DNA of 64,000 nt, taken from positions 372,001 through 436,000 of the forward strand of contig NZ_HG916855.1 in the NCBI RefSeq assembly GCF_000577275.2. Reading direction: 5' to 3'. A program made the position numbers and the translations under genes. Below the pieces are notes generated by a model. The model did no database searches, was not told where the DNA came from, and saw only the letters and a program-made list of their open reading frames with translations. Below are positions 2,886 through 45,833 of the stretch, piece after piece; positions within the stretch are counted from its first letter, which is position 1, and every line of letters begins with the position of its first letter. The DNA is from Rhizobium favelukesii (GTDB lineage Bacteria > Pseudomonadota > Alphaproteobacteria > Rhizobiales > Rhizobiaceae).

Positions 2886-2889
2886 CTAG

Positions 2890-4288: not shown

Positions 4289-4308
4289 CACTACTTTGGC
4301 AGAATTGA
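2962..4308 (+). CDS. IS701-family DDE transposase (B)
   Basis: A 448-residue transposase of a second IS701 lineage. Catalytic residues are D in FLVIDDTALPKKG, D in VLADAGYG and E in CEQAHQQMKEELGLDHFEG. The C-terminal arginine- and proline-rich tail ends with a zinc-knuckle-like CPHCRIRF. The chosen ATG (MAEQDVALTE) follows GCGAAGG; a GTG three codons upstream is possible. Because the element lost its right end, the reading frame runs past the old stop into the B' terminus and acquires a changed tail (MTPKSTLLWQN instead of MTPKSILPK). The core is intact, so it could still act on the complete B' ends. Confidence 0.85.
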   Translation: MAEQDVALTEWLKPFVEKLGHKKRRQMCPIYVSGLIGPGDRKSIEPMAERLAPDRYDRLHHFISDGIWDAGPLEAELAVQADRIVGASDAFLVIDDTALPKKGDHSVGVAPQYASMLGKRANCQTLVSLTLARDEVPVPVGLRLFLPDSWTSDQDRMAKAGVPELLRISRTKPEIALDEIDRLIAAGVRFGTVLADAGYGLSAAFRQGLSARDLTWAVGIPKHQKVYPHDVALIFPVAGHGRPRKHSIPDTLSTAAETILAASTWKTLSWRRGTKGRLVARFAAVRIRIADGSPQRILDKGQQHMPGEEAWLVGEWRSNDERKYYLSNLPTAATLKQLAAAIKARWVCEQAHQQMKEELGLDHFEGRSWQGLHRHALMTMIAYAFLQHQRLYKAKREKRNRRGPPKPTLPAIRRAVIAALSNHHPPQRCPHCRIRFQMTPKSTLLWQN

Positions 4309-30591: not shown

Positions 30592-31018
30592 CTACCGGAT
30601 GAACTGGACGTGCTTTGCAGAGAAGCTGCGACAGACGGCTTTCATTCATGGACAGGCTCGTCAGAGAATGGCGACCAGGCGGACCGGATGGCCAGAGAGA
30701 AGGAGAATATGGCCTCCGACATTCGTTCATCATGCTCGTCCCTGCTCTTCACCCGGGAACATCAGTTCATCAAAGCCGAATTTTGCGATGTCGTAGAACG
30801 GACTTTTGCAGCAGCCGCAATGACGCACGCCTTTTGTGCGCCGCCTTGGCGGTGGCCCCGGACCGACACCGGAAGGTCGTAACCTCGGTATTTTCACTTG
30901 TCCGGCATCCGACCGTTGTCATCATTGTCAATGAGGACAATTCTAATGATTGTTCACCCGATACATTAATTTGGGATGGGTAAAACATCCCCAGACACAC
31001 ATCTGGAGGCGGTAGAAT
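30592..31018. other. Stretch with no recognisable gene
   Basis: 427 bp after the IS6 terminus. A plus-strand frame (30610-30882) gives MAREKENMASDIRSSCSSLLFTRE without a known family. The right half should hold the promoter of the following secreted-protein gene. Confidence 0.3.
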
Positions 31019-31327
31019 ATGAATCACACCAGTGCAAACAGAGCTTGCAAGCACTTCGCCAAGGCCGTGGCGCTCGGGTTGGCAGTGGCAGCAATACTTG
31101 CCACCGGAGCTGAAGCCGGCGGAGCCAGAAATGGCAATCCGGTGGTTCGCGCGGTGTACCTCGTCAAGTCCGGCTCAGGCAGTCAGGTGCGATACAACAA
31201 GAATCCAGGCAAGAAAGTCATCATCAACGTTTCTGCTTCTGAATATATCAAAAGCAATCCCTATGTCTGTACGCCGAGCGGGTTTGGCCAGAAGGCGCGC
31301 TGCTACGTGCGTGGCCTGTCGCTCTAG
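31019..31327 (+). CDS. Small secreted hypothetical protein (102 aa)
   Basis: ATG follows GGAGGCGGTAGAAT. A signal peptide is clear: a basic start (NRACKHFAK), the hydrophobic core AVALGLAVAAILATGA, and cleavage near AEAGG. The mature ~68 residues are basic (VRYNKNPGKKVIINV) and contain two Cys (YVCTPSGFGQKARCYV), able to form one disulphide. I recognise no family. A strong terminator follows. The gene stands at the downstream end of the polysaccharide cluster but convergent with it, so a link is only positional. Confidence 0.6.
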   Translation: MNHTSANRACKHFAKAVALGLAVAAILATGAEAGGARNGNPVVRAVYLVKSGSGSQVRYNKNPGKKVIINVSASEYIKSNPYVCTPSGFGQKARCYVRGLSL

Positions 31328-31360
31328 AGCGAATTCCTCCGCTACGTTGGGGCATCATCA

Positions 31361-31399
31361 AAGAGCTGTTGGACGGGTGTCCGACAGCTCTTTTCATGT
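31361..31399 (+). terminator. Strong rho-independent terminator
   Basis: AAGAGCTGTTGGAC-GGGT-GTCCGACAGCTCTT forms a 14-bp stem (one G-T pair) followed by TTTTC. It lies between two convergent genes and may also serve the minus-strand operon ending at 31413, although the T run on that side is short. Confidence 0.85.
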
Positions 31400-31412
31400 A
31401 CAGCACAGCGGC

Positions 31413-31985
31413 CTATTGATTGCGGATACCTTTGATCTTTTCCGACGCCAGGTCCTCGGGGACAAGCTTCGAAATCTCATCATTGTCCTGGGCTTCGGAA
31501 TGCTTGAACACATACCAGCCGCCGGTCGGCTCTTTGCGCTGGTAGATCGTCTGGCCATCTGTCATGTGCAGGAAACATGTGGTGCCGCCCGTTGGGCCGG
31601 ACTTAACGTGCCAATCAGCCTCGAAGCACAGCTTTCCCGAGTTGGCCACGGTCCAATGGCCATCAGCCCAGGACGCGCGATCGCCCGAACCCGACCATCC
31701 CTTAAAGACCCGGCCTTTATCCTGCATGTAGGCTGCGCCATCGCACCACTTCCAGCTCTTGTCGCGGTAAAGCTCGTGAAGCTCCACCGCCGTCATTGGC
31801 CGGACATTTTCCGGCAGACGCAGACTCAGACGCTCTTGGCCAGTTTCCGGCGTGCCGCATGCAAGGTCCTCAGCCATCGCATTTGATGAGGTCAACATCG
31901 CACCTACCAAGGCAGCCATGATCGGTGCGCAGTTCTTGCCGAGGCGCGATGCAAAATATGGGGAGACGCTATTCTTCATCATCAT
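31413..31985 (-). CDS. DUF995 secreted protein 1
   Basis: A 190-residue protein with a signal peptide (CAPIMAALVGAMLTSSNAMA). The DUF995 core is visible: MTAVELHELYRDKSWKWCDGAAYM, WADGHWTVANSGKLCFEADW, CFLHMTDGQTIYQRKEPTGGWYVFKH. The WxW at the start, paired Cys and a Y-x-K/R-x-P-x-G-x-W motif define the family. DUF995 proteins are known mainly from rhizobia and have no established function. This is the last gene of the minus-strand polysaccharide set, 111 bp below the second DUF995 gene. The periplasm is the likely location. Confidence 0.82.
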   Translation of the reverse strand: MMMKNSVSPYFASRLGKNCAPIMAALVGAMLTSSNAMAEDLACGTPETGQERLSLRLPENVRPMTAVELHELYRDKSWKWCDGAAYMQDKGRVFKGWSGSGDRASWADGHWTVANSGKLCFEADWHVKSGPTGGTTCFLHMTDGQTIYQRKEPTGGWYVFKHSEAQDNDEISKLVPEDLASEKIKGIRNQ

Positions 31986-32096
31986 GATTTCACCTTCTAC
32001 GTTAAACTATTCATCGATTGATGCGGAGAGGCTGGGACAGGTAGACTTACAAGAGCTCCCGAGCGAACTCAGGAAACCCACACCGGCGTCTCGTTC

Positions 32097-32651
32097 TTAG
32101 CGGCCGCTGGCTTTGATCCGTGCGACAGCCGTGCTCACCCGGTCACCATTGACCAGCTTGCGCACCTCATCGTCTTTCCGAACGGGATTGTTCCGGAAGA
32201 CATACCATTTCCCGCCGATTGACGGCTTCTGGTAAATCACGCCATTTGTTTCGCGGTGCAGAAAACAGGTGACCGCTTGCGTCCCGGCTCTGTAGTCGTT
32301 GGAGAACCAACTCGCACGCATGCATAGCTCACCGTCGTCGGTCGCGCGCCAAGTCCCTTCCGCATAGGACCAATGGGTACCGTTGCGGACTTGAGCTGCA
32401 AACTTATTGCGGCTTGCTGGGAGCAGCCAAACTTTGGTTTTCTCGGCAGAGAAATATCCTCCTCCACTAGTCCACTTCCACGTGCGCCCGGCGTAGAGCT
32501 TTTCAAGTGCATTGGCTTTCATCGGGCTCGCCTTCACAGCAAGCCGGGCAATCGGATCCTCAGCCTTGGGCCTGGGGGCTGCGCTCGCATTGCCTACCAG
32601 CAAGAGAGCGAACATGACTGCGCTCGCGATGGTGAAACACTTCCGTATCAT
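32097..32651 (-). CDS. DUF995 secreted protein 2
   Basis: A 184-residue protein. The signal peptide is FTIASAVMFALLLVGNASA. The DUF995 pattern follows: MKANALEKLYAGRTWKWTSGGGYF, YAEGTWRATDDGELCMRASW, CFLHRETNGVIYQKPSIGGKWYVFRN. The ATG at 32651 (MIRKCFT) follows AGGAAAG. It diverges from the two neighbours (about a third identity by eye), so the three are old paralogues rather than recent copies. Encoded 119 bp downstream of the GH26 gene on the same strand. Confidence 0.82.
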   Translation of the reverse strand: MIRKCFTIASAVMFALLLVGNASAAPRPKAEDPIARLAVKASPMKANALEKLYAGRTWKWTSGGGYFSAEKTKVWLLPASRNKFAAQVRNGTHWSYAEGTWRATDDGELCMRASWFSNDYRAGTQAVTCFLHRETNGVIYQKPSIGGKWYVFRNNPVRKDDEVRKLVNGDRVSTAVARIKASGR

Positions 32652-32770
32652 TTTTCTTTCCTGTCGATCGAGTGGTTTCAGCAAACTGCCCTGGGCGGAA
32701 CTGCACAGAGCAAAGAGAAGAGCGGCTCAGCGTAGCCTGCGAACGCGAACCGCTCTGGTCGTTACGTCGG

Positions 32771-33715
32771 TCAATCCAGCGGATGGTTTGCGACGCGCCA
32801 ATCGGGCCGTCCGACGCCTTGCGGCCACGGATAGACTTCGCGATCGTTGAAATAGACAACGGCTGTCAACGCAGGGAATTCGGCGTGCGGCTTGTTGGCT
32901 TCCTTCGCCCAGTCTCGTACATAGTTGTCGTTGCCGGCATAACCGAGCTCGGCAATCACGACGGGTTTACCAAAGGCAGCGACACGATCGTATCCCGGCT
33001 TTGTGCGCTCGACGAACGTCGTGTCCCGACCCACTACCAACTTGTCGTAGGGCTGGTAGCCAAAGACGGACAATCCGATAACGTCAACATATTCGTTGCC
33101 CGGATAGTAAGCTTCCAGACCTTCATCCCCTTGCGGCGACCACATGTATCGAGCATGAGGAAGATCCTTGCGGCAGATATCGACGACGTGTTGATAGGCC
33201 TTCACATAGTCTTCCGGCTTCCAGAAGGACCAGCTGAACTGCCCTTCCTTGTCATCCATTTCCTGCGCCCAGCGGATGGTTACAGGGCTCTTCAGCTTGG
33301 AGGCTGCCGAACAGACAGCGGACATGTTCGAGTCGTAGCGACCCTCAAGAATCCCGTCCAACAGGTCGTCCGGGCTGACACGCCAGTCACGAGCCCATGA
33401 CCACGGTTCAACGGTGATCTGCAGGGATCGGCCGCGCTGGCCGGCATAGTCATCTGCGGCGCTTAGGGTTGCCAAATCCACATCTTCCCAGGGAAGGAAG
33501 AGGTGCTCAATTTTCGAGTTCGCGTCGTTGGTGTAGTCTCCGTTGGGATCATAGGCACCAGCCGTAACTGAATCCGCGGTGATAACAGGCCGTTTGTCGT
33601 GAAAAAGATTGCGACTGTCGACACTGGCACCGGATACGCCACTGGCGGCGTAGACCGCACCGGAAATGATCCCACTCCCGAGCAAGACCGCGCTGAGTTT
33701 CAAGAGACCTTTCAT
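32771..33715 (-). CDS. Secreted GH26-type glycoside hydrolase
   Basis: A 314-residue protein with a signal peptide (LLKLSAVLLGSGIISGAVYA). The (beta/alpha)8 features of GH26 appear: substrate strand LQITVEPWSWARDW, acid/base Glu in VTIRWAQEMDD and nucleophile Glu in KPVVIAELGYAG, with AVVYFNDREVYPW near the end. GH26 enzymes cut beta-mannan, and some cut beta-1,3-xylan or mixed-linkage glucan, with retention. In this operon a polymer-trimming or lyase-like editing role at the secreted polysaccharide is inferred, as is usual for hydrolases in exopolysaccharide clusters. It starts behind AGGAGAG, 13 bp after the upstream DUF995 gene. Confidence 0.82.
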   Translation of the reverse strand: MKGLLKLSAVLLGSGIISGAVYAASGVSGASVDSRNLFHDKRPVITADSVTAGAYDPNGDYTNDANSKIEHLFLPWEDVDLATLSAADDYAGQRGRSLQITVEPWSWARDWRVSPDDLLDGILEGRYDSNMSAVCSAASKLKSPVTIRWAQEMDDKEGQFSWSFWKPEDYVKAYQHVVDICRKDLPHARYMWSPQGDEGLEAYYPGNEYVDVIGLSVFGYQPYDKLVVGRDTTFVERTKPGYDRVAAFGKPVVIAELGYAGNDNYVRDWAKEANKPHAEFPALTAVVYFNDREVYPWPQGVGRPDWRVANHPLD

Positions 33716-33728
33716 AGCTCTCTCCTTT

Positions 33729-34280
33729 CTATTCCTTGGACGGTTGCATTGTTGGACCGACGGCAGCCTTCATGTCTTTCAGCCGTCCGGACACGAGGTC
33801 TGTGGCAAGCAACGTGTTCGCCTCATCCCCGCCCTGGGGTGGGACATGACGGAACACGAACCATTTGCCGTCGGGTTCGCGCTTTTGGTAAATGGTTCCG
33901 CCGTCAACCATGTGCGAGAAACACGTTCTGGCGGGAAAAGCGCCGCTTGCCGAATGCCATGTGGCATCGAGGCACATTTGACCAGTCTTGGTAACGAGCC
34001 ATCGGCCCTCTGCCCAGGATTTGTCATTCTCGCCATCGACCCATGCGCTGAATCGCCGCCCTTCGGCTTTCATCCGTCCGGCGCCGTTTTCCCACTTCCA
34101 GCTTTTGTTGCTGAAAAGTTCGTGAACTTCGCCGGCGGTCATTGCCTGCGCGCTCGCTGGTAAAACAGCGTCCTGGGACGTAGCTTCGTAGGTCGATCCG
34201 GAGAGAGCCAACGCCAACGTAGCGATCGCCGTCAGCAATCGGACGCCGCTTTGAGTTCGAGATTGTTGGAACTTAGCCAT
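33729..34280 (-). CDS. DUF995 secreted protein 3
   Basis: A 183-residue protein with a signal peptide (LLTAIATLALALSGSTYEATS). The DUF995 core is MTAGEVHELFSNKSWKWENGAGRM, WAEGRWLVTKTGQMCLDATW and CFSHMVDGGTIYQKREPDGKWFVF. The ATG at 34280 overlaps the end of the UDP-glucose dehydrogenase gene by 8 bp, so translation is probably coupled. That tight overlap ties DUF995 function to the sugar-nucleotide pathway. It is closer to DUF995 protein 1 than to protein 2. Confidence 0.82.
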   Translation of the reverse strand: MAKFQQSRTQSGVRLLTAIATLALALSGSTYEATSQDAVLPASAQAMTAGEVHELFSNKSWKWENGAGRMKAEGRRFSAWVDGENDKSWAEGRWLVTKTGQMCLDATWHSASGAFPARTCFSHMVDGGTIYQKREPDGKWFVFRHVPPQGGDEANTLLATDLVSGRLKDMKAAVGPTMQPSKE

Positions 34281-35703
34281 TGTCAACGGAGCCTCCCATC
34301 ACGTCGCAATGAACCCCGCTGGCGCCTCGGCTGGAAGTGACGACATCTGCTGGATGCGGCAGGAGTTCGGAGCTCCGCGCATCATGTCGCGCCGAAGTGG
34401 AGCGACCAATTGCCGAAACCCGAAACCCGGCCTTCTCAGCGGCGCCGGGCTCGTAAGCATTTCTGAGATCGACCAGAACTGGTTGGCGAACAATCGTCTT
34501 CAGGCGCGAGAGGTCAAGAGACCGGATGTCGCCCCACTCAGTAATGACGACAACAGCATCGGCTCCTCGTGCGCATTCATACGGGTCTTCGATTAGCTCG
34601 ACATCTGATAGGATCTGCTGGGCATTCTCGATCCCGACTGGATCATAGGCGCGAATGCGAGCGCCAAAGCGCTGTAGGGTTTCGATAAGCGGAACCGAAG
34701 GAGCGTCGCGCATATCGTCCGTATCGGGCTTGAACGTGAGACCGAGAACCGCGATGGTCAGGCCATCGACCTCACCTCCGAGCGCGTCCATCACCTTCAA
34801 GGCCATGCGACGCTTTCGTGCTTCGTTGGCGGTAACGGTTTCCTGCACGATCCGCACAGCAACCCCGTAGTCCTGGGCGGTGCGCAGAAGTGCCATCGTG
34901 TCCTTGGGGAAGCACGAGCCGCCATAGCCTGGGCCGGCATTGAGGAAGCTTGTTCCAATACGCTTGTCGAGCCCCATACCGAGTGCTAGTTCACTGACAT
35001 TGCTTTCCACCTGTTCGCACAGATCGGCAAGCTCGTTGATGAAGGTAATCTTGGTCGCCAGAAACGCATTGGCGGCATATTTGATCAGTTCTGAAGTGCG
35101 GCGCTGTGTGACCACGATCGGAGTCATCTGTACTTCGAGCGGCGCGTTATAGAGTTCCGTGACCACCTTGCGCGCGTGCTCATCCTCGACGCCAATCACT
35201 ACGCGGTCAGGCTCCATAAAGTCGCGGATTGCAACGCCTTCCCGCAGGAACTCCGGATTTGATGCCACGGAGAACGTTCCAGCCTTGCGCACTGAACCGA
35301 TAATCTTCTCCACAACATCGCCCGTACCGACCGGGACGGTAGACTTCACCACAACGACGGCATTGTCGTCGATTAGAGGTGCGAGTTCGCGTGCTGCCAT
35401 GTAAACGAATGACAGATCTGCATCGCCGTGACCGGCGCGGGGCGGTGTACCGACGGCGATGAACACAACGGCTGCACCCTTTACGGCGTTTGCCAGGTTG
35501 CAAGTAAAGCTCAATCGGCCTGCAGCTACATTCCGCTCGACGAGTTCGTCGAGACCGGGCTCATAGATTGGCACAACGCCAAGTTCCAGAGCGTTGATCT
35601 TCTGGGTGTTCTTGTCGACACACACCACTTCGTTGCCCCAAGCTGCGAAACAGGTCCCGCTGACCAATCCGACATAGCCGGTTCCAATAACTGCGATCTT
35701 CAT
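34273..35703 (-). CDS. UDP-glucose 6-dehydrogenase
   Basis: A 476-residue cytosolic enzyme that oxidises UDP-glucose to UDP-glucuronate with two NAD+. The Rossmann start is MKIAVIGTGYVGLVSGTCFA. The substrate and catalytic region includes EFLREGVAIRDFMEPDR, the Lys in ELIKYAANAFLATKITFINE and the active Cys in NAGPGYGGSCFPKD. The second nucleotide domain has LGLTFKPDTDDMRDAPS. The start at 35703 follows AAGGCAAC; the frame is open upstream but lacks the family N-terminus there. The C-terminal ~35 residues beyond FRVSAIGRST are an extension. It supplies the substrate of the UXS enzyme encoded upstream in the same set. Confidence 0.93.
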   Translation of the reverse strand: MKIAVIGTGYVGLVSGTCFAAWGNEVVCVDKNTQKINALELGVVPIYEPGLDELVERNVAAGRLSFTCNLANAVKGAAVVFIAVGTPPRAGHGDADLSFVYMAARELAPLIDDNAVVVVKSTVPVGTGDVVEKIIGSVRKAGTFSVASNPEFLREGVAIRDFMEPDRVVIGVEDEHARKVVTELYNAPLEVQMTPIVVTQRRTSELIKYAANAFLATKITFINELADLCEQVESNVSELALGMGLDKRIGTSFLNAGPGYGGSCFPKDTMALLRTAQDYGVAVRIVQETVTANEARKRRMALKVMDALGGEVDGLTIAVLGLTFKPDTDDMRDAPSVPLIETLQRFGARIRAYDPVGIENAQQILSDVELIEDPYECARGADAVVVITEWGDIRSLDLSRLKTIVRQPVLVDLRNAYEPGAAEKAGFRVSAIGRSTSARHDARSSELLPHPADVVTSSRGASGVHCDVMGGSVDNG

Positions 35704-35716
35704 ACGTAGTTGCCTT

Positions 35717-37564
35717 TTATTCTTGGATCGAATTGCTGCCGGCGTAGCCGCGCCAACGGGGGTTGAAGACGGTCTTGTGTACGTTCTTGCCGCCAATGCC
35801 TGCTCCGGCCACTGAGAAGTGGTCATCAAAAAGAGAGAAACTGCGAGTGCCCCAGGCAAGCGCCTCAACGCCATCGCGTCCGTGTTCAACAGCCGCCAAA
35901 CCCGGCAGTGTCACAAGGGCGAGCAGGCTGGCTGCAAGCGCAGGCCGATAGATGCGAGTACGATAGCGCACCCGATTTTCGCGAGCGTGTTGCACGACGA
36001 TGACAAGCAGCAGCAGGGCATAGATGGCTGCGTTGAAGATGGCGAAAACGTAGAAACCACGCGTGGCATCGCTGGCATTCGGCACCAGTAGCACCGGCAG
36101 GACGGAGGTCAGCGCAAGGAAGCCATACGGGGCCAGCACACGGAACGGAAGTGGATCCACATCGGCTGCCCCCTTCGGCGTCACGCGGAAATCCACGAAC
36201 GAACCGGTTGACCAGTCACGCACCGCCGCAAGCGTTCCTGCGAGCGCCCATGGCCAGCGTGCAAACACGAAGAGCGTGTTCTCAAAGCTGAGAATTTTCG
36301 CGTTGTAAGGGCGGTAGGTTCCCGAAGCGCGCCAGCGGTAGGCCATAAAGATCAGCATGAGCGATTGAGGCAGGAAATGGCTGAGGAAATCAGGATAGGT
36401 GACGCCTACCAAATTATCTCCCGTCAGCAGTGCCGTGATCGGCAGAAGGAACATCAGCGCCATGAAGAAGGAAAACAGCGGATACCAGAACTGCGAAAAC
36501 AGGAATTGGAACTTCAGTCGCGCTGGCAGGGGGCGAACGAACCTGGGCGAATATTGCAGCAGAAGCATCACAAGGCTGCGCGACCACTGGAATTCCTGGG
36601 TGACGAGATCGGCAAACGTACGCGGTCCGTCGCCATGAGCGATAGCATCGAGCGCGTGCGCTCCACGCCAACCATAGGAATTCATCATGAGCGTGGTGGA
36701 ATGATCTTCCGCCAACTCAGGGCCCAGACCCCCAATTTCGCACAATGCGGCAGTGCGAACGGCGTAATGCGATCCGATGCAAAGCGGGGCAAGACCACTG
36801 TTATATCCGGCCTGAAGTGAGCCGTGCATACTGGCTTCTGCATACAGGCGGCCACGTGCCGACCAGCTCTCAGCCGCATTTCGGTCGCAGATGCTCGGCG
36901 CAGAGACATAGCCAATCGCGGGGTCGGCAAACGGGCGCAGCATCTGGAACAGATAGCCTGGCTCCGGAACATGATCGGCGTCGAGCTGCACCACGAAATC
37001 GTAACGCTCGTAGCCATATTGATCGTAGAAGAAAGCAAGATTGCCTTCCTTGCAGCGAGTGCGTCGCGGCCAAGTCTGGAGATGGTAATCCGACCGGCCC
37101 TTGCGAGTGGAAACGAAGACCCCGTGAGCCTCGCACCATGCGAGTGTTTCAGGAGTTGGATCCTCGTCGGCAAGCCATGTGTCATGCGGCACATCCTGGG
37201 CCAGCATGGCGCGGAGTGTTTCGGCGACGACGGGGAACGGTTCGGACGGTGCCTTTGTCACAACCATAGCAAAACGGCTACCCGAAGGAAGATTCAAAGG
37301 ACCGCTTGGGCGCCGCGCGCGAAAGAACACGACAATGAAATAGGCGGGCAAGAGTGTGACCCATGCCAGGATAGCAGTCACTAGGATGGATCCGAGAAGA
37401 TGGATATGATTGGCGGGGGAAAGCCACCAGCGCCAGAAATATGCTAGTGCTATCGCCCAAAGCCCTGCACTGACCAGATACTCTTTCCGTTGCCAGCCCG
37501 TGAAAATCGACACGGATAGGGGCTCAGCGTTTGTGGGTTTCCTCTTCTTTTGGAAAATTCTCAT
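35717..37564 (-). CDS. Membrane GT2 glycosyltransferase, cellulose-synthase-like
   Basis: A 615-residue inner-membrane polymerase candidate. Two helices at ~32-82 precede the GT2 domain. That domain has acidic motif TWLADEDPTPE (~129-138), metal-binding DAD in QLDADHVPEPGY (195-197), the catalytic ED in ELAEDHST (286-287) and the acceptor motif QEFQW (323-327). In canonical processive synthases the last motif is QxxRW; the Arg is Gln here, which is unusual. Five or six C-terminal helices could form the export pore. No PilZ domain is attached. The start overlaps the galE-like gene by 4 bp (ATGA). It probably polymerises pentose or related units from the encoded UDP-sugars. Confidence 0.87.
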   Translation of the reverse strand: MRIFQKKRKPTNAEPLSVSIFTGWQRKEYLVSAGLWAIALAYFWRWWLSPANHIHLLGSILVTAILAWVTLLPAYFIVVFFRARRPSGPLNLPSGSRFAMVVTKAPSEPFPVVAETLRAMLAQDVPHDTWLADEDPTPETLAWCEAHGVFVSTRKGRSDYHLQTWPRRTRCKEGNLAFFYDQYGYERYDFVVQLDADHVPEPGYLFQMLRPFADPAIGYVSAPSICDRNAAESWSARGRLYAEASMHGSLQAGYNSGLAPLCIGSHYAVRTAALCEIGGLGPELAEDHSTTLMMNSYGWRGAHALDAIAHGDGPRTFADLVTQEFQWSRSLVMLLLQYSPRFVRPLPARLKFQFLFSQFWYPLFSFFMALMFLLPITALLTGDNLVGVTYPDFLSHFLPQSLMLIFMAYRWRASGTYRPYNAKILSFENTLFVFARWPWALAGTLAAVRDWSTGSFVDFRVTPKGAADVDPLPFRVLAPYGFLALTSVLPVLLVPNASDATRGFYVFAIFNAAIYALLLLVIVVQHARENRVRYRTRIYRPALAASLLALVTLPGLAAVEHGRDGVEALAWGTRSFSLFDDHFSVAGAGIGGKNVHKTVFNPRWRGYAGSNSIQE

Positions 37565-38547
37565 GCGCGCACCTCCAGCCCGAAGTGTGGAGCGGCTGTG
37601 CGAATAATGGTGTCGAGGTCGGAATAGACAGTCTGGAAGCCGAGTTTCTCGGCAGCGAGAGCGGGGTCGGCGTAAAGTGCAGGCGGATCGCCTGCACGGC
37701 GCGCGCGCATCGCAACCGGCACTTCGCGGCCAGTCAGGCGGCTGATGGCGTCAAGGATTTCCTTGATGGACGTGCCGTGTCCGCTGCCGAGATTGACGGC
37801 GAGGTTGTCTCCATCATTGACCAGATGCTCGACCGCGAGCACATGTGCGCGCGCCAAGTCGGTAACATGAATGTAGTCGCGAATGCAGGTGCCGTCTGTT
37901 GTGTCGTAATCTTCGCCGTAGACTTCAAGAAAATCGATATTGCCGGCAGCGGCCATCAACGCGCGCGGAATGAGGTGCGTTTCCGGATCGTGGGCTTCCC
38001 CCAGTTCGCCGTCCAGATCGGCTCCGGACGCATTGAAATAACGAAGGGCCACATAGCGCGATCCGTAGGCAGCCGCGTAATCAGCGAGCATGTGCTCCGC
38101 GATCAGCTTCGTGCGGCCATAGGGATTGATGGGACGCTGAACCTCACCTTCGCGGATAGGAAGCCGTTCTGGAATCCCGTATGTCGCGCAGCTGGATGAA
38201 AAGATGATGTTCCGGCCGCCGGTCAACCGGCATGCCTCGAGTAGGGATTGCGTGCCGCTGACATTATTCCGGTAGTATTTTGCGGGGTTTCCGACCGATT
38301 CCCCAACATAGGCGGAAGCCGCAAAGTGAATAACCGCGATCGGGTCGTGTCTTTCAACGGCTTTGATCAGACGCGGTGTGTCAAGGATGTCTCCCTCGAC
38401 CAAGGTTCCCCAGCGAACGGATGCGCGATGTCCGGTCGAAAGATTGTCGTAGACGATTGGCTCATAGCCCTGCTTGGCCAAAAGTTTAGCGGTGTGGCTG
38501 CCGATAAAGCCTGCCCCCCCGACCACAAATACTGTCTTGTTGGTCAT
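37561..38547 (-). CDS. galE-like epimerase, probably UDP-xylose 4-epimerase
   Basis: A 328-residue extended SDR. NAD loop VFVVGGAGFIGSHTAKLLA; catalytic YxxxK in NPYGRTKLIAEHML with the partner Ser in IIFSSSCATYG; substrate loop DGTCIRDYIHVTDLA. By family alone it would be UDP-glucose 4-epimerase. Its place after a UDP-xylose synthase matches the S. meliloti uxs1-uxe pair, so interconversion of UDP-xylose and UDP-arabinopyranose is more likely (inference). The ATG at 38547 gives MTNKTVFVVGG. Its stop overlaps the start of the GT2 gene. Confidence 0.88.
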   Translation of the reverse strand: MTNKTVFVVGGAGFIGSHTAKLLAKQGYEPIVYDNLSTGHRASVRWGTLVEGDILDTPRLIKAVERHDPIAVIHFAASAYVGESVGNPAKYYRNNVSGTQSLLEACRLTGGRNIIFSSSCATYGIPERLPIREGEVQRPINPYGRTKLIAEHMLADYAAAYGSRYVALRYFNASGADLDGELGEAHDPETHLIPRALMAAAGNIDFLEVYGEDYDTTDGTCIRDYIHVTDLARAHVLAVEHLVNDGDNLAVNLGSGHGTSIKEILDAISRLTGREVPVAMRARRAGDPPALYADPALAAEKLGFQTVYSDLDTIIRTAAPHFGLEVRA

Positions 38548-38651
38548 TATTGTAATTTCCCGGAGCGCATCGAACCGTTTGCGCATCTGACAGATACGCA
38601 TCGTTCATTGCTGTTCATCTGTGTTTTGGGGTGTGAATGGACGTTGGCCCC

Positions 38652-39659
38652 TTAGGCTGCCGCTGCGAGTTTCCCTGTCCGCTTAGCCAGTTGACGCTCG
38701 AAGTAAGCGATCGTCGACCTCAGGCCGTCAGCCAGCTCGACTGTCGGTTGCCATCCAAGTTCTCGCTTCGCCACCTCGATATCCGGACGGCGCTGGCGCG
38801 GATCGTCAACGGGCAATGGCCGATGGGCGACCTTGGAGCGCGACCCGATCATATCTATGATCTGCTCTGCTAGCGCCCCGACAGTGAATTCGTCGGGATT
38901 GCCGATATTGACCGGCGTGTGAATGGCGTTCGGGCTGTACATCAGACGATGAAAACCCTCAATCAGGTCGTTGACGTAGCAGAAGGAACGGGTTTGGGAG
39001 CCGTCGCCATAGACCGTGATATCCTCGCCCTTCAGTGCCTGCACGATGAAATTGGATACGACCCGGCCGTCGTCCGGGCGCATGCGCGGACCGTAGGTGT
39101 TGAAGATACGCACAACACGGATATCGACACCGTGCTGCTGATGGAAGTCGTGGAACAGGGTTTCGGCGGAACGCTTGCCTTCGTCATAGCAGGAGCGCGG
39201 ACCAAAGGAATTGACATTTCCCCAGTAGTGTTCCGGCTGCGGGTGCACATGGGGGTCTCCGTACACTTCCGAGGTGGAAGCCTGGAAGATTCTGGCCTGG
39301 TAGCGAGTGGCCAGCTCCAGGAGATTGAGCGATCCAATCACGTTCGTTTTCATCGTGTGGATCGGGTCGGCCTGATAATGTGGCGGCGATGCTGGGCAGG
39401 CAAGATTGTAGATTTCGTCCACCGGCAGGTCGAGTGATGCGACAATGTCGTGTCGAACGAAACTGAACCTGTCAAAACTCAGAAGATGGCTAAGGTTTTC
39501 CATTCGTCCAGTGGAAAGGTTGTCCAGGCAGACAACGGAATGGCCCTGATTCAGAAGTCTTTCGCAAAGATGGGACCCAAGAAACCCTGCGCCTCCGGCA
39601 ACGAGAATGCGGCGCGCGGATGTGTTCAGGGAATTTCCGTTCGATATATTGGAAATCAT
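38652..39659 (-). CDS. uxs: UDP-glucuronate decarboxylase (UDP-xylose synthase)
   Basis: A 335-residue SDR. NAD loop [19 protein letters not shown]; the UXS signature [24 protein letters not shown], with the catalytic Thr/Ser in [23 protein letters not shown]; YxxxK in [15 protein letters not shown] oxidises UDP-glucuronate at C4, decarboxylates it and releases UDP-xylose. The start ATG at 39659 lies 11 bp behind GGAGGA; a TTG at 39665 is possible. It is the first gene of the polysaccharide set and faces the AraC regulator across a ~790-bp intergenic region. The next gene is 104 bp downstream. Confidence 0.92.
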
Positions 39660-40453
39660 TTCCAAGAGTCCTCCAGTATATGAAGAAGTGCTTTGCTAAG
39701 CGTCCAAGCGACGAATAGATTTCTACTACCGCCAACTCTCAGTTCTTATCTCGCTCTTCGTTTTTATTGCGAATTTGATGTCCAATAGATATCGATCACT
39801 ACCTAAAGCGGCGATATCAACGAATCCGCGAACTTTTCAAAACATCCATTTTTGATTCGCGGCTTGGAGGGGGACGACGCAACGCGATCAATCATTGCTC
39901 CGCAAGGCGGAGCTCTTGCCTGCCGGAGTGGCATTGATGAAGTCGTCTGCAGGGGAGAGCCAGAACCACCCCTCGCCGGCCCACTACGTCGCTCACGATC
40001 CCCGTCATTGCATCAACTGTGAGCGGATCTTTCTTGTCGCTAATTGGACATCCACGGCAATCGTTGTCGCAATTGGATGTGCGAAGGCATTGAATGCCCT
40101 TGTGAATTTTATCAGGGTCGGAATGTCGGCGGCAGCGCAAGTACCGGAAAGGAGCCTACAGACGAGCTTGGCTATCCCAGTGGCGCATTGGATGTCGCCA
40201 CGTCGAACGTCTGGCTACACTGGGCAGTCATCAAAACTGCCCGAGGATGGCGGCAAAGTCCTTGCTGAATGCTCGACTAATAGCCCCGTACAACCTAAGC
40301 TCCTCCGCAGGTCGTGCTCTCCCTACATGTCAATGACATCTTTTATGTCGTAGGGCAGCTCTTGCGTGAGGGCGGCTTTTAAGGTCGGTTCAAGATCGGC
40401 TGAATACTTAAAAGGACATTCCATCGTTTCGCGTGGCAGCTGGGAGTTAGTTG
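39660..40453. promoter_or_regulatory. Long divergent promoter region of the polysaccharide locus
   Basis: 794 bp with no supported gene. An AT-rich part (39700-39860) holds the inverted repeat CCGCGAA (39826-39832) / TTCGCGG (39856-39862), a candidate regulator site ~170 bp upstream of uxs. A perfect hairpin GCTCCGC-AAG-GCGGAGC lies at 39897-39913. The length suggests complex control or a small RNA; neither can be shown from sequence alone. Confidence 0.5.
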
Positions 40454-41587
40454 ATGAGTAATCAGGACAACCCATTATCACCAGGATTTGTTGAACGCAG
40501 GCGCCACCCGCGTGTGGCCAAAGAAGCCCTGGGTGTCGAGGAGGGCAAAGAAGGAACCCTCACTCCGTTGCGATTTGAAACGTCGTCGCTTCCAGCTTTT
40601 CGGCAGTTTCCCACGTGGAGGGAACACATGGCAGCGCTGATGGATTGTCGGTTGCCGGACCATGCTGACCCAGAAAGTGGGTTTCTCGCGGAACAAGCGA
40701 TCTGGAATTTGGGCGGGGTATTGCTCCTGCAGCAAACAACCCCGGCATTCAGCTTCGTCCGCTCACCCGAAATGGTGCGCCTCAGTCCGATCGATCATTG
40801 GTACATTACATTTCTTCGAACGGGATGCAGTTGGGTAGAAGCGGATGGTCATGTAGCCGAAAACAAACCGGGTATGATGTCTATTCGTTCGCTTGGTCGT
40901 CCATTTCGTGGACGAAAACAAGCAACCACGACCGTCAGCTTGATAATGCCTGCCGATCTATTTGCCAATCACGGCGGACTGCCGGCTGCGTGCAACAACG
41001 TCATCTTGGGAGGACATCGGGTCAAGCTGCTTCTGGATTATATTTCCAGCGTGGAAACAAATCTCACACATTTCACGGAGGGCGATTTGCCGACCGTGAA
41101 GGATCGTATGCGAGACATGGTGTTCGATGCAGTGACTCCTTTGGTGGACCGTGATCAAGGCCACGATCATATTTCGCAAATTGGATTGATGACGCGGGCC
41201 AGGCGCTTTATCCTCGGGAATATATCTTCTCCCGATCTGACTATCGAAGGTATTTGCAAAGAGCTCGCGATCTCACGAACGCGTCTCTACGAACTGTTTG
41301 AGGCGTCCGGTGGCGTCGCAAATTATATCCGCCGCCGCCGTCTCCTCGCAGCTCACGCCATGCTCGCGGATCCCGCGGATAATCGTAAAGTCGCTGAAAT
41401 TGGTTTGACAATTGGTTTCGATTCCGCTGCGAATTTCAGCCGCGCGTTCACACAACACTTTGGATACAGCCCGAGCAACATATTCAAGCGAAATGCCCCC
41501 GGCGATCAAGCCTTGCGTGGGATGAAGGATAATATGAAATCGGACGTGACTTTCGATGGCTTGCTACGGACGCTAGCGCTCGTCTGA
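40454..41587 (+). CDS. cuxR: AraC-family activator with N-terminal RxxxR motif, CuxR-like
   Basis: A 377-residue regulator. Near the start, VERRRHPRVAKEAL contains R16-RHP-R20, the RxxxR c-di-GMP-binding pattern that CuxR of S. meliloti shares with PilZ proteins. A cupin-like sensory domain follows (PAFSFVRSPEMVRLSPIDHWYITFL). The C-terminal double helix-turn-helix is at ~240-345 (TIEGICKELAISRTRLYELFEASGGVANYI; KVAEIGLTIGFDSAANFSRAFTQHFGYSPS). CuxR is reported to activate uxs1 when c-di-GMP is bound, and the divergent uxs gene here gives the same arrangement. c-di-GMP binding is inferred from the motif. The ATG at 40454 follows GGGAG. Confidence 0.82.
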   Translation: MSNQDNPLSPGFVERRRHPRVAKEALGVEEGKEGTLTPLRFETSSLPAFRQFPTWREHMAALMDCRLPDHADPESGFLAEQAIWNLGGVLLLQQTTPAFSFVRSPEMVRLSPIDHWYITFLRTGCSWVEADGHVAENKPGMMSIRSLGRPFRGRKQATTTVSLIMPADLFANHGGLPAACNNVILGGHRVKLLLDYISSVETNLTHFTEGDLPTVKDRMRDMVFDAVTPLVDRDQGHDHISQIGLMTRARRFILGNISSPDLTIEGICKELAISRTRLYELFEASGGVANYIRRRRLLAAHAMLADPADNRKVAEIGLTIGFDSAANFSRAFTQHFGYSPSNIFKRNAPGDQALRGMKDNMKSDVTFDGLLRTLALV

Positions 41588-41776
41588 AGTGCCCCAATTT
41601 TGTTCACCAAGGGCTTGTCGGGTTGGCTCGTCTCAAAGACGGACATGAGGGCTGGACGTCTGATTGTCCTTGCCGGTCCACAGGTACATTCGCCCTTATC
41701 GCAGGATCCGGCGCTCGCCGCGCGTGTTGATGGCGAAATGCCGGTCGCAGTCTTCGGGCGTCACATGCCGGGTTCA

Positions 41777-42180
41777 TCATGCGCTCCGGGACGCTGCTCG
41801 TGGAAGCTCGCGCAAAATTCTGATGAGGTGAAGCACTGTTCCGCTTGCCGCCATCAGCAGGACAACCACCCATGGCGGGGTCTTCCACACGACCAGCAGG
41901 TTGAGGCCGATCAGTGCAAGCGCGAAGTCGTAGGGGTTCAGGATGGCGCTGGTCCAAACCGGGCCGTAGAGAACCGCCCCGAGAATTCCGACGACGGCGG
42001 CGTTGGCGCCGCGCATCGCAGCCTGGGGCATGGGGTCGTTTCCGGAAAGCTGTCCCAGAACGGCAAGGAACCGACGAGTAGCAAGAATCCGGGCAGAAAA
42101 ATCGCAACGAGGCACATTGCTGCTCCAAGCACGCCATTGGGTGGCGGACCAGCAGCGTCGTGACGCGGGTGACCGCTTCT
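41777..42180 (-). pseudogene. Chromate transporter ChrA C-terminal relic
   Basis: Two frames combine into the end of a ChrA-type permease. One gives VAIFLPGFLLLVGSLPFWDSF (41938-42132) and the other GANAAVVGILGAVLYGPVWTSAILNPYDFALALIG followed by VVWKTPPWVVVLLMAASG. ChrA proteins have ~400 residues; fewer than 130 are recognisable, with a frameshift between them. The fragment follows the AraC gene and is unrelated to it. Confidence 0.7.
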
Positions 42181-42638
42181 TCGAACATGCGGCGACTGCC
42201 GGTCGTGTGGATATTGCCTTACGATCAGTCCACTTTGCTCGAAGCCGCGAGTAAATTCTGCCGAACAACGAAATAGAGCCGGCAGAAAGGAATGTTATGC
42301 GGGAGAACACCTAATCTGTTTCAAGAGGCGAAGCAGGCCCTTCAAGCTACTGCCGGAGAGATGAACAATGGCCGAAAACACTCCTGATCTAACTTTGGCA
42401 GAGCGCCAGATCGTCGATGTCAAGCATCCGCCGATCGACTAGCTCGGCGGCGCCTGCTGCGTCATCAGCAAGACCATCGTCTGTCAGGAAGCAGAGGCAG
42501 GTGTCCTCGACTGCGTGCCTGCCGTTCTCGGTTGCGAACGCAGGGTCATTTGAGACGTCGAATCCGATGAAACGAACCTTCAGGCCCAGGCCCCTGGTGA
42601 AGACTCGGTCCGACGCGACGGTCCTTGGAGCTTGTGTC
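42181..42638. other. Stretch between the ChrA relic and the sugar locus
   Basis: About 450 bp without a supportable gene. A short frame at 42368 (MAENTPDLTLAERQIVD) ends after ~24 codons. It has a plausible start region (GGAGAGATGAACA) but no known relatives that I recognise. Confidence 0.3.
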
Positions 42639-43481
42639 TTAAAACACGAAGGCTTGCATCACATAGGTCGGAGACGCACCGGTGTCGGTGATGATGCGGT
42701 CGAGTTCGCCGTCACTCATGTCGGCCAGTATTCCGGTTCTGACGAGTACGCTGTCCAACCGGGCAGACGCCGCTCCGAGGATGTCGTGCTCGACGCTATC
42801 GCCTATGCAGACGACGCGTCTCCTGTCCTCAACGCCGGCAAGCCTAAGCGCGTGATCGTAGATTTCAGGATAGGGCTTTCCGATCCAGACCACTTTTCCG
42901 CCCATCGCTTCATAGAGCATGGCAATGCTGCCAGCACCCGGCGCAACGGAACCCTCGTGGAGTTTGTGGATATCAGGATTGGTGCAGTAGCACGGCACAT
43001 TGTTTTCGGCAGCCGGCCTCAACATCTCGCGGTAGTCGTGCATGGAAATGCGCTCGGCCTCGCTGCCTGAGATGATGACGATGTCTGCTTCCTTCCCGCT
43101 ACGTATGGAGGTTAGTCCCAATCGATCGGCGAGGTTGGTATCCCCACCGCTTGAGATCGTCAGCGCTCGCGATCCCTGGTAGATGGCGACACCGGGACGT
43201 GACAGAATCTCAAATGCAACGTCACCCGATGTCACGAAGAAGTCGAAGCTTTCCGGCGCGAAGCCGAGCTTCACCAGCCGTTCGGCGTTGTACTCGCCGC
43301 TCCGCCCTGAATTTGAGAGGATCACGATCCTCTTGCCCGCGTGGCTCAGTTGCCGAAGGGCATCGACCGCGCCCTGATACGGCCCGATGTCGTCTCGAAG
43401 GACGCCGAACTGATCGACGAAGAACACGTCATACTCAGCGCTCAATCGCGACGCCATGTTCACTGTGACAGGTCTAGGCAT
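42639..43481 (-). CDS. HAD-superfamily (class IIA, NagD-like) phosphatase
   Basis: A 280-residue protein. HAD motif I is altered from DxDxT to VFFVDQFGVLRDD: the nucleophile Asp is kept and the second Asp is replaced by Phe-Gly context, as in several class IIA members (DxxG). Motif II is VILSNSGRSG, motif III the Lys in WIGKPYPEIYDHAL, motif IV IGDSVEHDILGA. It probably dephosphorylates a sugar phosphate of the pathway. The ATG at 43481 overlaps the kinase stop by 8 bp, so it is translationally coupled and last in the operon. Confidence 0.82.
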   Translation of the reverse strand: MPRPVTVNMASRLSAEYDVFFVDQFGVLRDDIGPYQGAVDALRQLSHAGKRIVILSNSGRSGEYNAERLVKLGFAPESFDFFVTSGDVAFEILSRPGVAIYQGSRALTISSGGDTNLADRLGLTSIRSGKEADIVIISGSEAERISMHDYREMLRPAAENNVPCYCTNPDIHKLHEGSVAPGAGSIAMLYEAMGGKVVWIGKPYPEIYDHALRLAGVEDRRRVVCIGDSVEHDILGAASARLDSVLVRTGILADMSDGELDRIITDTGASPTYVMQAFVF

Positions 43482-44754
43482 CTTCCTGCTCCAGCGCGGC
43501 AATAACCAGAGATGCCGTGCCGACGGCGGCCTCCAGCGATTTGGCCGTCAAAGGCTCGACGCCGAGGGCGCGCGACCGCATTAACGTCCAGGCCGGATTG
43601 CGTGCGCCGCCCCCGACAGTTCTCAAGGTCTTGAGAGGCATGGCGCCCAGTTCCTCGAGGCGTCGGTAGCCAAGACGTTCTATCTCGGTCATCCCCTCCA
43701 GAATGGCTTGGAAGAATTGCGCGTCATCGGCAGGCCGCGGATCTAGCCGAGGTTGATAATCAGGATCGTTGAAAGGAAACCGTTCGCCCGGCCGTAGAAG
43801 GGGATAGTAGTTGAGACCGAGCGGCTGCTCGGGGTTGGTCCGGGCGGTCAATTCGCCGAGCTTGCTATCGCCGATCAAGGCTCGAACCACGTTGCCACCG
43901 CTGTTGGAAGCGCCTCCGAGCAGCCAAAACTTGCCCACCCGATGGGAATAGACGCCGAATTCCGGGGCGTTGATCGGGCGGGCGGAGGCGAGTTTCAGCA
44001 CGATCGTCGAGCCGAGCGCCGTTACCGCGTCGCCAATCTCCGATGCTCCCGTCGCGAGGAATGACGCACATCCGTCCGTCGTGCCGGCATGGAAAAACGC
44101 CGATTTCGGAAGGCCGAGGTCACGCAAATAGCCTGCGACCGGTGCGACTTTCTTGCCGGCGCGCACGACCTTGGGCAGTGCGCCCACATCCATCCCGGCG
44201 CGCTCGATCCACTCAGGCCAACGCTCCGAGGCGAGATCATAGCCTGTTTTCAGAGCATTGTTCTCGTCGCTGATGCGCGCCGGGCAACCTAGCATCATCA
44301 AGATCCAATCAGCCTGGTGAACGGCGGTAACGGCGTCTTGCCCCCGGGACAGGTAGATGGCCCGTGCAAGCCCCGAATTGGCGCCGACCGCAGTACTGCC
44401 CGCAGGAGCATGGCGAGCGATCCGGCTGGCGATCTCAGACTCGGGGCAGGGCTCGTTGTACATCAGCACCGAGCCCGTCGGACGGTCGCGGCTGTCGAGT
44501 GCTAGCACGGTGCCGGACGTGCCATCGACGGCAACGCCTCTGACAGCTGTCAGGTCGACCTTGGAGTTGAGGTTTTCGACGGCCTGGCGCACACGTGTCC
44601 ACCACGCGTCGGGCTGCCGAGTCTCGGCAGGGCTTTCAAATGGCGCAGCCGCGAAGCCTATTGGGTTTCCATGCCGGTCGACGGCGCTCGCCCGCGCACC
44701 CGACGTGCCGATGTCGATGCCAAGCGCATATGCCTGCTCAGAACCGGTGTTCAC
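43474..44754 (-). CDS. FGGY-family carbohydrate kinase (1)
   Basis: A 426-residue kinase. The N-terminal ATPase lobe reads YALGIDIGTSGARASAVDRHG with AVDGTSGTVLALD; the second lobe has GTTDGCASFLATGA and the adenosine motif TVGGGARNPAWTLMRSRALG. It resembles xylulokinase-like members but lacks their standard length (~480). Substrate unknown: a ketose or a sugar acid. GTG at 44754 overlaps the aldolase stop by 4 bp (GTGA), so the longer upstream starts are unlikely. It is paired with a HAD phosphatase and a class II aldolase. Confidence 0.85.
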   Translation of the reverse strand: MNTGSEQAYALGIDIGTSGARASAVDRHGNPIGFAAAPFESPAETRQPDAWWTRVRQAVENLNSKVDLTAVRGVAVDGTSGTVLALDSRDRPTGSVLMYNEPCPESEIASRIARHAPAGSTAVGANSGLARAIYLSRGQDAVTAVHQADWILMMLGCPARISDENNALKTGYDLASERWPEWIERAGMDVGALPKVVRAGKKVAPVAGYLRDLGLPKSAFFHAGTTDGCASFLATGASEIGDAVTALGSTIVLKLASARPINAPEFGVYSHRVGKFWLLGGASNSGGNVVRALIGDSKLGELTARTNPEQPLGLNYYPLLRPGERFPFNDPDYQPRLDPRPADDAQFFQAILEGMTEIERLGYRRLEELGAMPLKTLRTVGGGARNPAWTLMRSRALGVEPLTAKSLEAAVGTASLVIAALEQEDA

Positions 44755-45833
44755 GCCGAGTGCCTCGTTGACTGTCGGTCGAGTGCCTGGCGGTATTGTT
44801 CCGCTTCCCAATGTGTCAGTTCGTATTCATCGGCATCAGAGAGATAGGCGATCTTCTCGCCATCAGGAATTCGGCCGACGACCTCTGCAAGGCAGCGGGC
44901 CATGACCTCGCCTCCGGCCGTCAGCGTATTCGACAACAGGATGCCTTTGCCAGGAACGATTACCAGCTTGGGCAGCTCGCGTCCCTCCCTGGCGCAGGCC
45001 GCTTCCAGATCGGTGGCGTTCTGTCCGGGCGTGAGCGTACCGATCTCGATTCCGAGGAAGATCACATGGTCGGGATAAAGCGAGCCGCCAAGGGCGAGCG
45101 CCTGGTTGATCCCCGGTAGCGCAATCGCATGGCTTTCGAGATCTTTTGCGGCATGAAAGGTTGATCCTTTTGCCGCAGTGGCCAGGGCGTCGAGATCGGG
45201 TGCAGCGGTTGCACGCGGTTCTGAACGAAGGGCCTCGGTGACGCGATCAATCCGTTCGGCGACTTCGCTTACCGTGTCGCCGCAAACGATGATGCCGTGG
45301 TTGAAGAGGATCAGGATATCGGGCCTTGCTGCCGCGGCTTTTCCAATCTCTCGAGCCAGAGGGGTGCCGGGGCGCCTGTAAGGTATAGAGGCCCATTTCA
45401 GGTCGGGAACAGCTGCCATCCGTGCCGCCAGCACCTCGTCGCGCCGGTCCAGCACCGCAAGCGCAATTGCGTTCACGCAGTGGTAGTGGGCGACAACCGG
45501 GCTCTGCAGCGCGGCATGGAAACTTGTCTCGATCGACGGTCGCAGGCCGCTCGAGTTCAGTTCGTCAACGACGAAATCGATCGACTTTTCGGCCCTGGCG
45601 TCGCCTTCCCGCAGTGCCGTGACCAGCGGATCCACAAGAACGGGAACCATGATGTCCTGTTCGCCGGCCTTCGCAAGCCAGGTTCCCGAGGCCTTCACCC
45701 ACATGACGCCGTCATGCTTGATCGAGGTATTGCCGCCGGCGCCCTGGGTTTTCTGTATGTCGTTGCCGATCCCGCTTGAGAGGTGGAGGAAATCCCCGAA
45801 CAGGTCGGTTTTCCGCAAGTCCGGGATTGTCAT
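44751..45833 (-). CDS. Class II aldolase/adducin-family protein
   Basis: A 360-residue protein. The zinc-site pattern of the fuculose-1-phosphate aldolase family is present: Glu in SIETSFHAALQ, two His in VAHYHCVNAI and a third in LILFNHGIIVCG; substrate residues include GAGGNTSIKHDGVMWVKASG. Typical FucA proteins are ~215 residues. This one has an added ~130-residue C-terminal half, as in the YgbL/OtnC-related and RhaD-like larger members. It would split a phosphorylated ketose into DHAP or a two-carbon unit plus an aldehyde. It heads the minus arm of the locus, divergent from the DeoR regulator. Confidence 0.83.
   Translation of the reverse strand: MTIPDLRKTDLFGDFLHLSSGIGNDIQKTQGAGGNTSIKHDGVMWVKASGTWLAKAGEQDIMVPVLVDPLVTALREGDARAEKSIDFVVDELNSSGLRPSIETSFHAALQSPVVAHYHCVNAIALAVLDRRDEVLAARMAAVPDLKWASIPYRRPGTPLAREIGKAAAARPDILILFNHGIIVCGDTVSEVAERIDRVTEALRSEPRATAAPDLDALATAAKGSTFHAAKDLESHAIALPGINQALALGGSLYPDHVIFLGIEIGTLTPGQNATDLEAACAREGRELPKLVIVPGKGILLSNTLTAGGEVMARCLAEVVGRIPDGEKIAYLSDADEYELTHWEAEQYRQALDRQSTRHSA

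Follow-up and report, generated by a model that had tools for sequence, protein, structure and literature searches.

The window analysed here, a stretch of 64,000 nucleotides within contig C62 of Rhizobium favelukesii LPU83 (genome of 7,569,648 bp in 62 contigs), carries at 31413-41587 one plus-strand gene for an AraC-type regulator, cuxR, and eight minus-strand genes in the order uxs-uxe-apsS-ugd-DUF995-GH26-DUF995-DUF995. We read these as a locus for an arabinose-containing polysaccharide (APS), with a candidate CuxR operator before uxs (Table 1). The initial annotation of this DNA had named these genes and described a regulator with an N-terminal RxxxR motif, divergent from uxs across about 790 bp. 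The genes are real, all being open frames at the expected positions, and the divergent cuxR and uxs frames are separated by 785 bp. An APS gene cluster has been reported for the chromid pLPU83d of LPU83 (1,932,030 bp; PMC9048898) and drawn in Figure 1 of a 2021 paper (PMC7902896), and the present cluster is very probably that one; the APS cluster as such is already in print for LPU83, and is of an ordinary kind among rhizobia. Three plasmid records (T136, T1470 and T1473), from strains named R. favelukesii (PMC12981098), match positions 31000-42000 at 99.9-100%.

The preferred starts are ATG codons at 40454 for cuxR, 35703 for ugd, and 34280 and 32651 for the first and second DUF995 genes. A longer ugd frame (34273-35889) was set aside, because it begins inside apsS and the start at 35703 agrees with an annotated Phyllobacterium gene. 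No Rfam family reached its gathering score within 31000-42500, and a described RNA family in the locus was therefore rejected.

Table 1 Features of the APS locus of LPU83 and of the related sites elsewhere in the genome (window positions unless a contig or locus is given)
Feature	Position	Strand	Remarks
cuxR, AraC-family regulator	40454..41587	+	N-terminal ERRRHPR (RxxxR), C-terminal helix-turn-helix (HTH); best PDB match 5NLA, E 7.6e-94
Predicted CuxR operator/promoter of the APS operon	39786..39858	-	Direct repeat and -10 box; ~120 nt before the uxs start
uxs, UDP-glucuronate decarboxylase (UDP-xylose synthase)	38652..39665	-	Matches human UDP-glucuronate decarboxylase structures (UXS1, 2b69; E 6.5e-115)
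uxe, GalE-type 4-epimerase (UDP-xylose/UDP-arabinose, possibly UDP-glucose/galactose too)	37561..38601	-	
apsS, membrane GT2 synthase, cellulose-synthase-like	35717..37564	-	No PilZ match in Pfam
ugd, UDP-glucose 6-dehydrogenase (UDP-glucuronate supply)	34273..35703	-	Not in the S. meliloti operon
DUF995 gene, apsH1 position	33729..34280	-	Predicted small beta-barrel after a signal-like N-terminal segment; conserved C103, C120
GH26-like glycoside hydrolase, apsE position	32771..33715	-	Putative catalytic E152 and E256 invariant
DUF995 gene, apsH2 position	32097..32651	-	
Third DUF995 gene	31413..31985	-	Unmatched in 80 related loci
cuxR2	C62:1396994-1398187	Same as cassette row	RxxxR present
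cuxR2 row, element and 73-aa gene	L127 9459-17930 = C62:1396459-1404930		
Third element copy and 84-aa gene	L170 6573-6933 = C59:3299572-3299932		Chromosome

The closest structure to the window regulator, 5NLA, is that of CuxR (PMC7499043), a protein that binds cyclic di-GMP (c-di-GMP) through RxxxR (PMC9045272) and whose dimerisation and DNA binding are promoted by this ligand (PMC12538310). The window protein is 44% identical to CuxR of Sinorhizobium meliloti, with homology across the ligand- and DNA-binding domains, and its motif, R16-R-H-P-R20, lies in the context ERRRHPR (ERRxxxR type). Both arginines are kept in 84 of the 85 aligned CuxR frames of APS loci (window included), beyond what chance would give, the single exception being a broken Shinella copy (L004); the cuxR of locus L055, in three pieces, fell below the coverage cut and is left out of this count. 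RxxxR is also kept in all 15 CuxR matches (E up to 1e-60) of a 151-genome sample, and is absent from a distant paralog in the same genome (C62:788568). The HTH residues are conserved as well. The window protein is thus likely a CuxR-like, c-di-GMP-dependent activator, for which ligand binding, dimerisation and activation are predicted from these similarities.

To look at the promoter, an expectation-maximisation motif search was run on 70 dereplicated 500-bp regions upstream of uxs, and one strong motif was obtained. This 72-nt element consists of a 20-bp direct repeat and a fixed -10 box, with the consensus AAATGgAC-n5-GAtAAgTTTCcGGATTc-n3-GATAACGACA-n17-TAt. Its half-sites are GGA-N6-GATAA-like and lie in the window at 39847-39834 and 39827-39814, 20 bp apart, which is also the strongest autocorrelation among lags of 10-31; they are followed by a weak -35 (39814-39809) and the -10 TAT (39791-39789). 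The TA is found at offset 19 in 70/83 copies, with a spacer of 17 bp. The best core match is on the same strand in 83/85 uxs-upstream regions, and in both exceptional regions (L067 and L090) the stretch fetched contains no cuxR. The core score is 15-20 of 21 in 82/85 regions, 14 in one and 13 in two, as compared with 255 base-shuffled sequences, which scored 11-13 in 241 cases, 14 in 12, and 15 and 16 once each. When whole loci were rescanned with training sites of at least 72% identity removed, the element was the top-ranked position of the locus in 81/83, the two misses (L076 and L110) being loci with a second strong site. The window copy reaches 28.9 bits, and no other position in the 64 kb exceeds -10.5.

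The occurrence of the element was then compared with that of CuxR and ApsS in the 151 genomes, with a profile built from 34 copies (E up to 0.001, stricter filters). The element is present in 13 genomes and CuxR (E up to 1e-60) in 14, and all 13 element genomes are among the 14 CuxR genomes (Fisher p 7e-18, in a test that ignores relatedness). ApsS is found in 17 genomes: all 12 with both ApsS and CuxR have the element, while none of the five with ApsS and no CuxR does, their ApsS being diverged (54-60%). One of the two genomes with CuxR and no ApsS has the element. The element therefore tracks CuxR rather than ApsS, which argues against its being a promoter for another factor, such as an alternative sigma factor or other global regulator, that merely travels with CuxR loci. 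The fixed -10 box and the 17-bp spacer do indicate that part of the conservation is that of a core promoter, but the 20-bp tandem repeat is close to the spacing usual for AraC-type sites, and we regard such an independent promoter as quite unlikely.

The genome of LPU83 holds three strong copies of the element, and the next match has an E value of 0.33. These copies, at C62:411788, C62:1396771 and C59:3299572, are located before uxs, about 155 nt beyond the cuxR2 stop, and on the chromosome, respectively. Downstream of the second and third copies are genes that encode two similar small proteins, 73 and 84 residues long, which share the pattern REEVLA..F..FVQRA.AAGW.E.EVALTLADIADDYVMALARRV. Since the same element stands before two related small-protein genes, CuxR and/or CuxR2 probably runs a regulon of three promoters. 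Downstream of the element, proteins of this kind are encoded twice in G128 and also in R. rhizogenes L178 and L076. In G029 and in R. leguminosarum a more distant form lies 434-446 nt from the element, and in G029 it is this small-protein gene, not APS, that the element precedes. Several downstream genes were named by eye from sequence. The element also stands before a DUF995 gene and an acyltransferase in M. tianshanense L176 and G090, before second uxs-type clusters in G045 and G138, and, as weaker sites, before a NarL/LuxR-type regulator in L062, with a similar situation in L079 and G090. Several other weak sites had no clear downstream target on inspection, and in genome G096 the contig ends just past the element. 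Near the chromosomal copy of LPU83, on the other strand, acyltransferase-, glycosyltransferase- and ABC-transporter-like genes were noted by eye. In two genomes (L132 2652-5076 and L133 13594-16108) another uxs-type gene (54-55% identity) has an RxxxR CuxR and the element next to it and, at a greater distance, a GT2-like gene (22-24%), all separate from that genome's APS operon; this is a possible second CuxR-controlled polysaccharide.

The second regulator gene of LPU83, cuxR2, closes a same-strand row of the order GGDEF-EAL, slr1658-like, STAS-methyltransferase, SpoIIE phosphatase with HAMP, slr1658, slr1659, cuxR2. The slr1658- and slr1659-type partners exceed their cut-offs (NF047703, 170.7 bits, and NF047705, 128.4 bits; cut-off 100 each); the scores of the second slr1658-like protein and of the STAS part fall short of theirs, and the dCache match of the phosphatase is sub-threshold. 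The SiaA and SiaD equivalog cut-offs are not reached (NF038263, 133 versus 700; NF038266, 92.7 versus 290), so that the cassette is not assigned to SiaABCD. Among 87 sequences, namely 86 loci plus the window, 24 have at least four of the six signalling genes in the stretch fetched, and two more are cut by the locus end. In nine Rhizobium loci (R. tropici and others) the cassette genes share one orientation and point towards uxs. The cassette marker occurs in 16 of the 151 sampled genomes, of which nine have ApsS (1.8 expected), and it adjoins ApsS in only one of these nine (G140); of the 16 stretches, some of which are short, five show an RxxxR CuxR next to the cassette. The cassette thus goes closely with APS in certain lineages and not at all in others. 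The Sia-like module would operate in the manner of the Sia pathway of Pseudomonas aeruginosa (PMC7647112) and, with its GGDEF-EAL enzyme, is a candidate c-di-GMP source.

The two regulators have to be weighed against each other. A FastTree tree built on 86 sequences places S. meliloti CuxR together with CuxR2 in a clade of 40 members (support 0.81) and puts the window CuxR in a separate clade of 44 (support 0.999), so that strict orthology of the window CuxR is uncertain. This grouping, the RxxxR motif of CuxR2 and the element copy that adjoins it in LPU83, as one does its relative in L076, would all suit a CuxR2 that, with the Sia-like cassette, is the main activator of the uxs promoter, the local CuxR being redundant or antagonistic. 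Nevertheless, the local cuxR is adjacent to and divergent from the operon, like 43 of the other 84 CuxR frames placed, and both its RxxxR and its HTH residues are conserved, which makes a leading role of CuxR2 improbable.

The gene products point to the polymer that this regulation would serve. The initial annotation had claimed a complete route from uridine diphosphate (UDP)-glucose, and such a route, to UDP-glucuronate (ugd), UDP-xylose (uxs), UDP-arabinose (uxe) and polymer (apsS), is supported in silico. Further ugd genes are found elsewhere in the genome (two at 56% and three at 31-38% identity to the local one), and the local ugd may thus boost the supply of UDP-glucuronate and not be its sole source. 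ApsS resembles the catalytic part of cellulose synthase and matches GT2 families only in Pfam; because it shows no PilZ domain, control is probably transcriptional. Uxe is 69% identical to S. meliloti Uxe and resembles UDP-glucose 4-epimerases (GalE; TIGR01179, 398 bits; structure 4twr), so that its predicted pentose activity rests on synteny with S. meliloti uxe. Uxe could then act mainly on UDP-glucose, with an ApsS that uses xylose, glucuronate or hexose, and xylose in the chain would fit the closest solved relative of the GH26 protein, a beta-1,3-xylanase (2ddx; phmmer E 4.8e-8, profile E 4.2e-9). However, the genes present are those of the S. meliloti operon, the product of which is termed arabinose-containing, and we find a polymer not based on arabinose unlikely.

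The GH26 assignment itself is above threshold (PF02156, 32.1 bits, cut-off 20.2), and E152 and E256, which the motifs of this family mark as putatively catalytic, are invariant in 15/15 sequences. The DUF995 model is a confidently predicted small barrel of eight strands (predicted local distance difference test score, pLDDT, 86), for which no fold family could be claimed. DUF995 is present in all 17 ApsS genomes of the 151, and in three others; among 31 DUF995 loci examined, GH26 is absent only in L026, L027 and L028, which derive from these three genomes without ApsS.

Taken together, these findings make it highly likely that the locus is the APS operon of LPU83 under a CuxR-type activator, which in its c-di-GMP-bound form would switch on a small regulon including APS. 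In the proposed mechanism, a rise of c-di-GMP would let CuxR bind the ligand via its N-terminal RxxxR and dimerise; the dimer would sit on the two half-sites 20 bp apart, reaching the poor -35 upstream of uxs, and recruit RNA polymerase. Ugd, Uxs and Uxe would then provide UDP-glucuronate, UDP-xylose and UDP-arabinose, ApsS would polymerise and translocate the chain, the GH26 enzyme might trim or release chains in the periplasm, and the small DUF995 barrels might bind or guide the glycan. Several points weigh against this interpretation, besides the position of the window CuxR in the tree and the GalE likeness of Uxe. The window copy has a -35 in poor agreement with the consensus; the element is present in L073 and L089 though no cuxR is in the fetched stretch, and genome G149 has an RxxxR CuxR and, on a full scan of its stretch, no element. 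The element model was trained on uxs promoters, so that finding the element at uxs in close relatives involves some circularity, and the members of the 151-genome sample are related to each other. LPU83 colonies were neither red on Congo red nor wrinkled under the conditions of one study (PMC7902896), and the literature searched holds no experiment on c-di-GMP binding or activation by LPU83 CuxR, or on the pentose content of its polymer.

The distribution of the operon was examined in a scan of named genomes, which gave 337 ApsS relatives, the counts resting on the best 80 loci of the 337. Among these 80, uxs is found in 79, uxe and GH26 in all, ugd in 52 (with 2 more partial), and cuxR within the fetched stretch in 75. 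Two DUF995 genes are present in 65 loci, one in 12, none in 2 and three in 1 (L060); the extra match of the latter is in fact one gene in two pieces, which leaves the third DUF995 gene of the window unmatched in this set. Two records stand apart. On a contig titled Bacillus subtilis SK6B4 (L104 6509-15516), the APS map and coordinates are nearly those of Pseudochrobactrum L111, and this operon is probably contamination of a public assembly. On Shinella plasmid pShin-11 (L004 2100-15193), a Tn3-family transposase and a recombinase lie between apsS pieces, and the uxs, uxe and cuxR frames are broken.

Elsewhere in the window, two groups of minor features were seen by eye. The minus-strand frames at 42639-45833, adjoining the locus, are HAD-type, FGGY-kinase-like and class II aldolase-like, and resemble a sugar-alcohol or tetrose catabolic set. 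At 3-572 a GGDEF-type frame, open at the window start and with its stop at 572, is followed by two transposase-like genes (1517-4308); it is possibly a c-di-GMP enzyme gene cut by insertion elements.

More broadly, the RxxxR AraC proteins of Rhizobiales may form a c-di-GMP-reading class with its own operator, in which a 20-bp direct repeat is joined to the core promoter, and with a genuine regulon that comprises APS, a family of small proteins of ~70 residues and, in other genera, a NarL/LuxR-type regulator and a DUF995-acyltransferase pair. Several lineages would couple this class to a dedicated Sia-like phospho-switch that includes a GGDEF-EAL enzyme of its own, and in LPU83 three promoters would be shared by two of these regulators and would link an external cue to coat synthesis; this general picture may hold or fail with about equal chance. 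The candidate operator predicts which genes an RxxxR AraC regulator controls, and makes addressable the questions of which cue switches APS on and what the DUF995 proteins do. In the literature searched, outside the scope of which lie the three main CuxR papers, we found neither the operator, the three-promoter regulon and the paired second regulator, nor a tie of the small proteins and the signalling cassette to APS.

In its account of the cluster, the paper that reported APS for pLPU83d (PMC7902896) makes no mention of LPU83 cuxR, the operator, ugd, the second CuxR or the small-protein targets. As the initial annotation had expected, the locus compares well with the cuxR region of S. meliloti: the APS operon on pSymB has the gene order uxs1-uxe-apsS-apsH1-apsE-apsH2 and shares the divergent RxxxR CuxR, the DUF995-GH26-DUF995 tail and the promoter element, of which a scan of pSymB found one copy, at APS. 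The idea that LPU83 extends this plan with GH26 and three DUF995 genes is rejected for GH26 and two of the DUF995 genes, since S. meliloti has them as apsE, apsH1 and apsH2, and holds for the third DUF995 gene, which together with ugd and a CuxR of only 44% identity distinguishes the LPU83 operon. The Sia-like cassette is found ~3.3 kb from cuxR in S. meliloti 1021, whereas in LPU83 it lies ~985 kb away, with cuxR2. The cassette has in common with SiaABCD of P. aeruginosa a SpoIIE phosphatase with HAMP, an slr1658-type kinase-like protein, an slr1659-type STAS partner and a GGDEF enzyme in one row. In contrast to that system, the LPU83 row has a GGDEF-EAL in place of a GGDEF-only enzyme, an extra STAS-methyltransferase and a second slr1658-like protein, and ends with an RxxxR AraC regulator.

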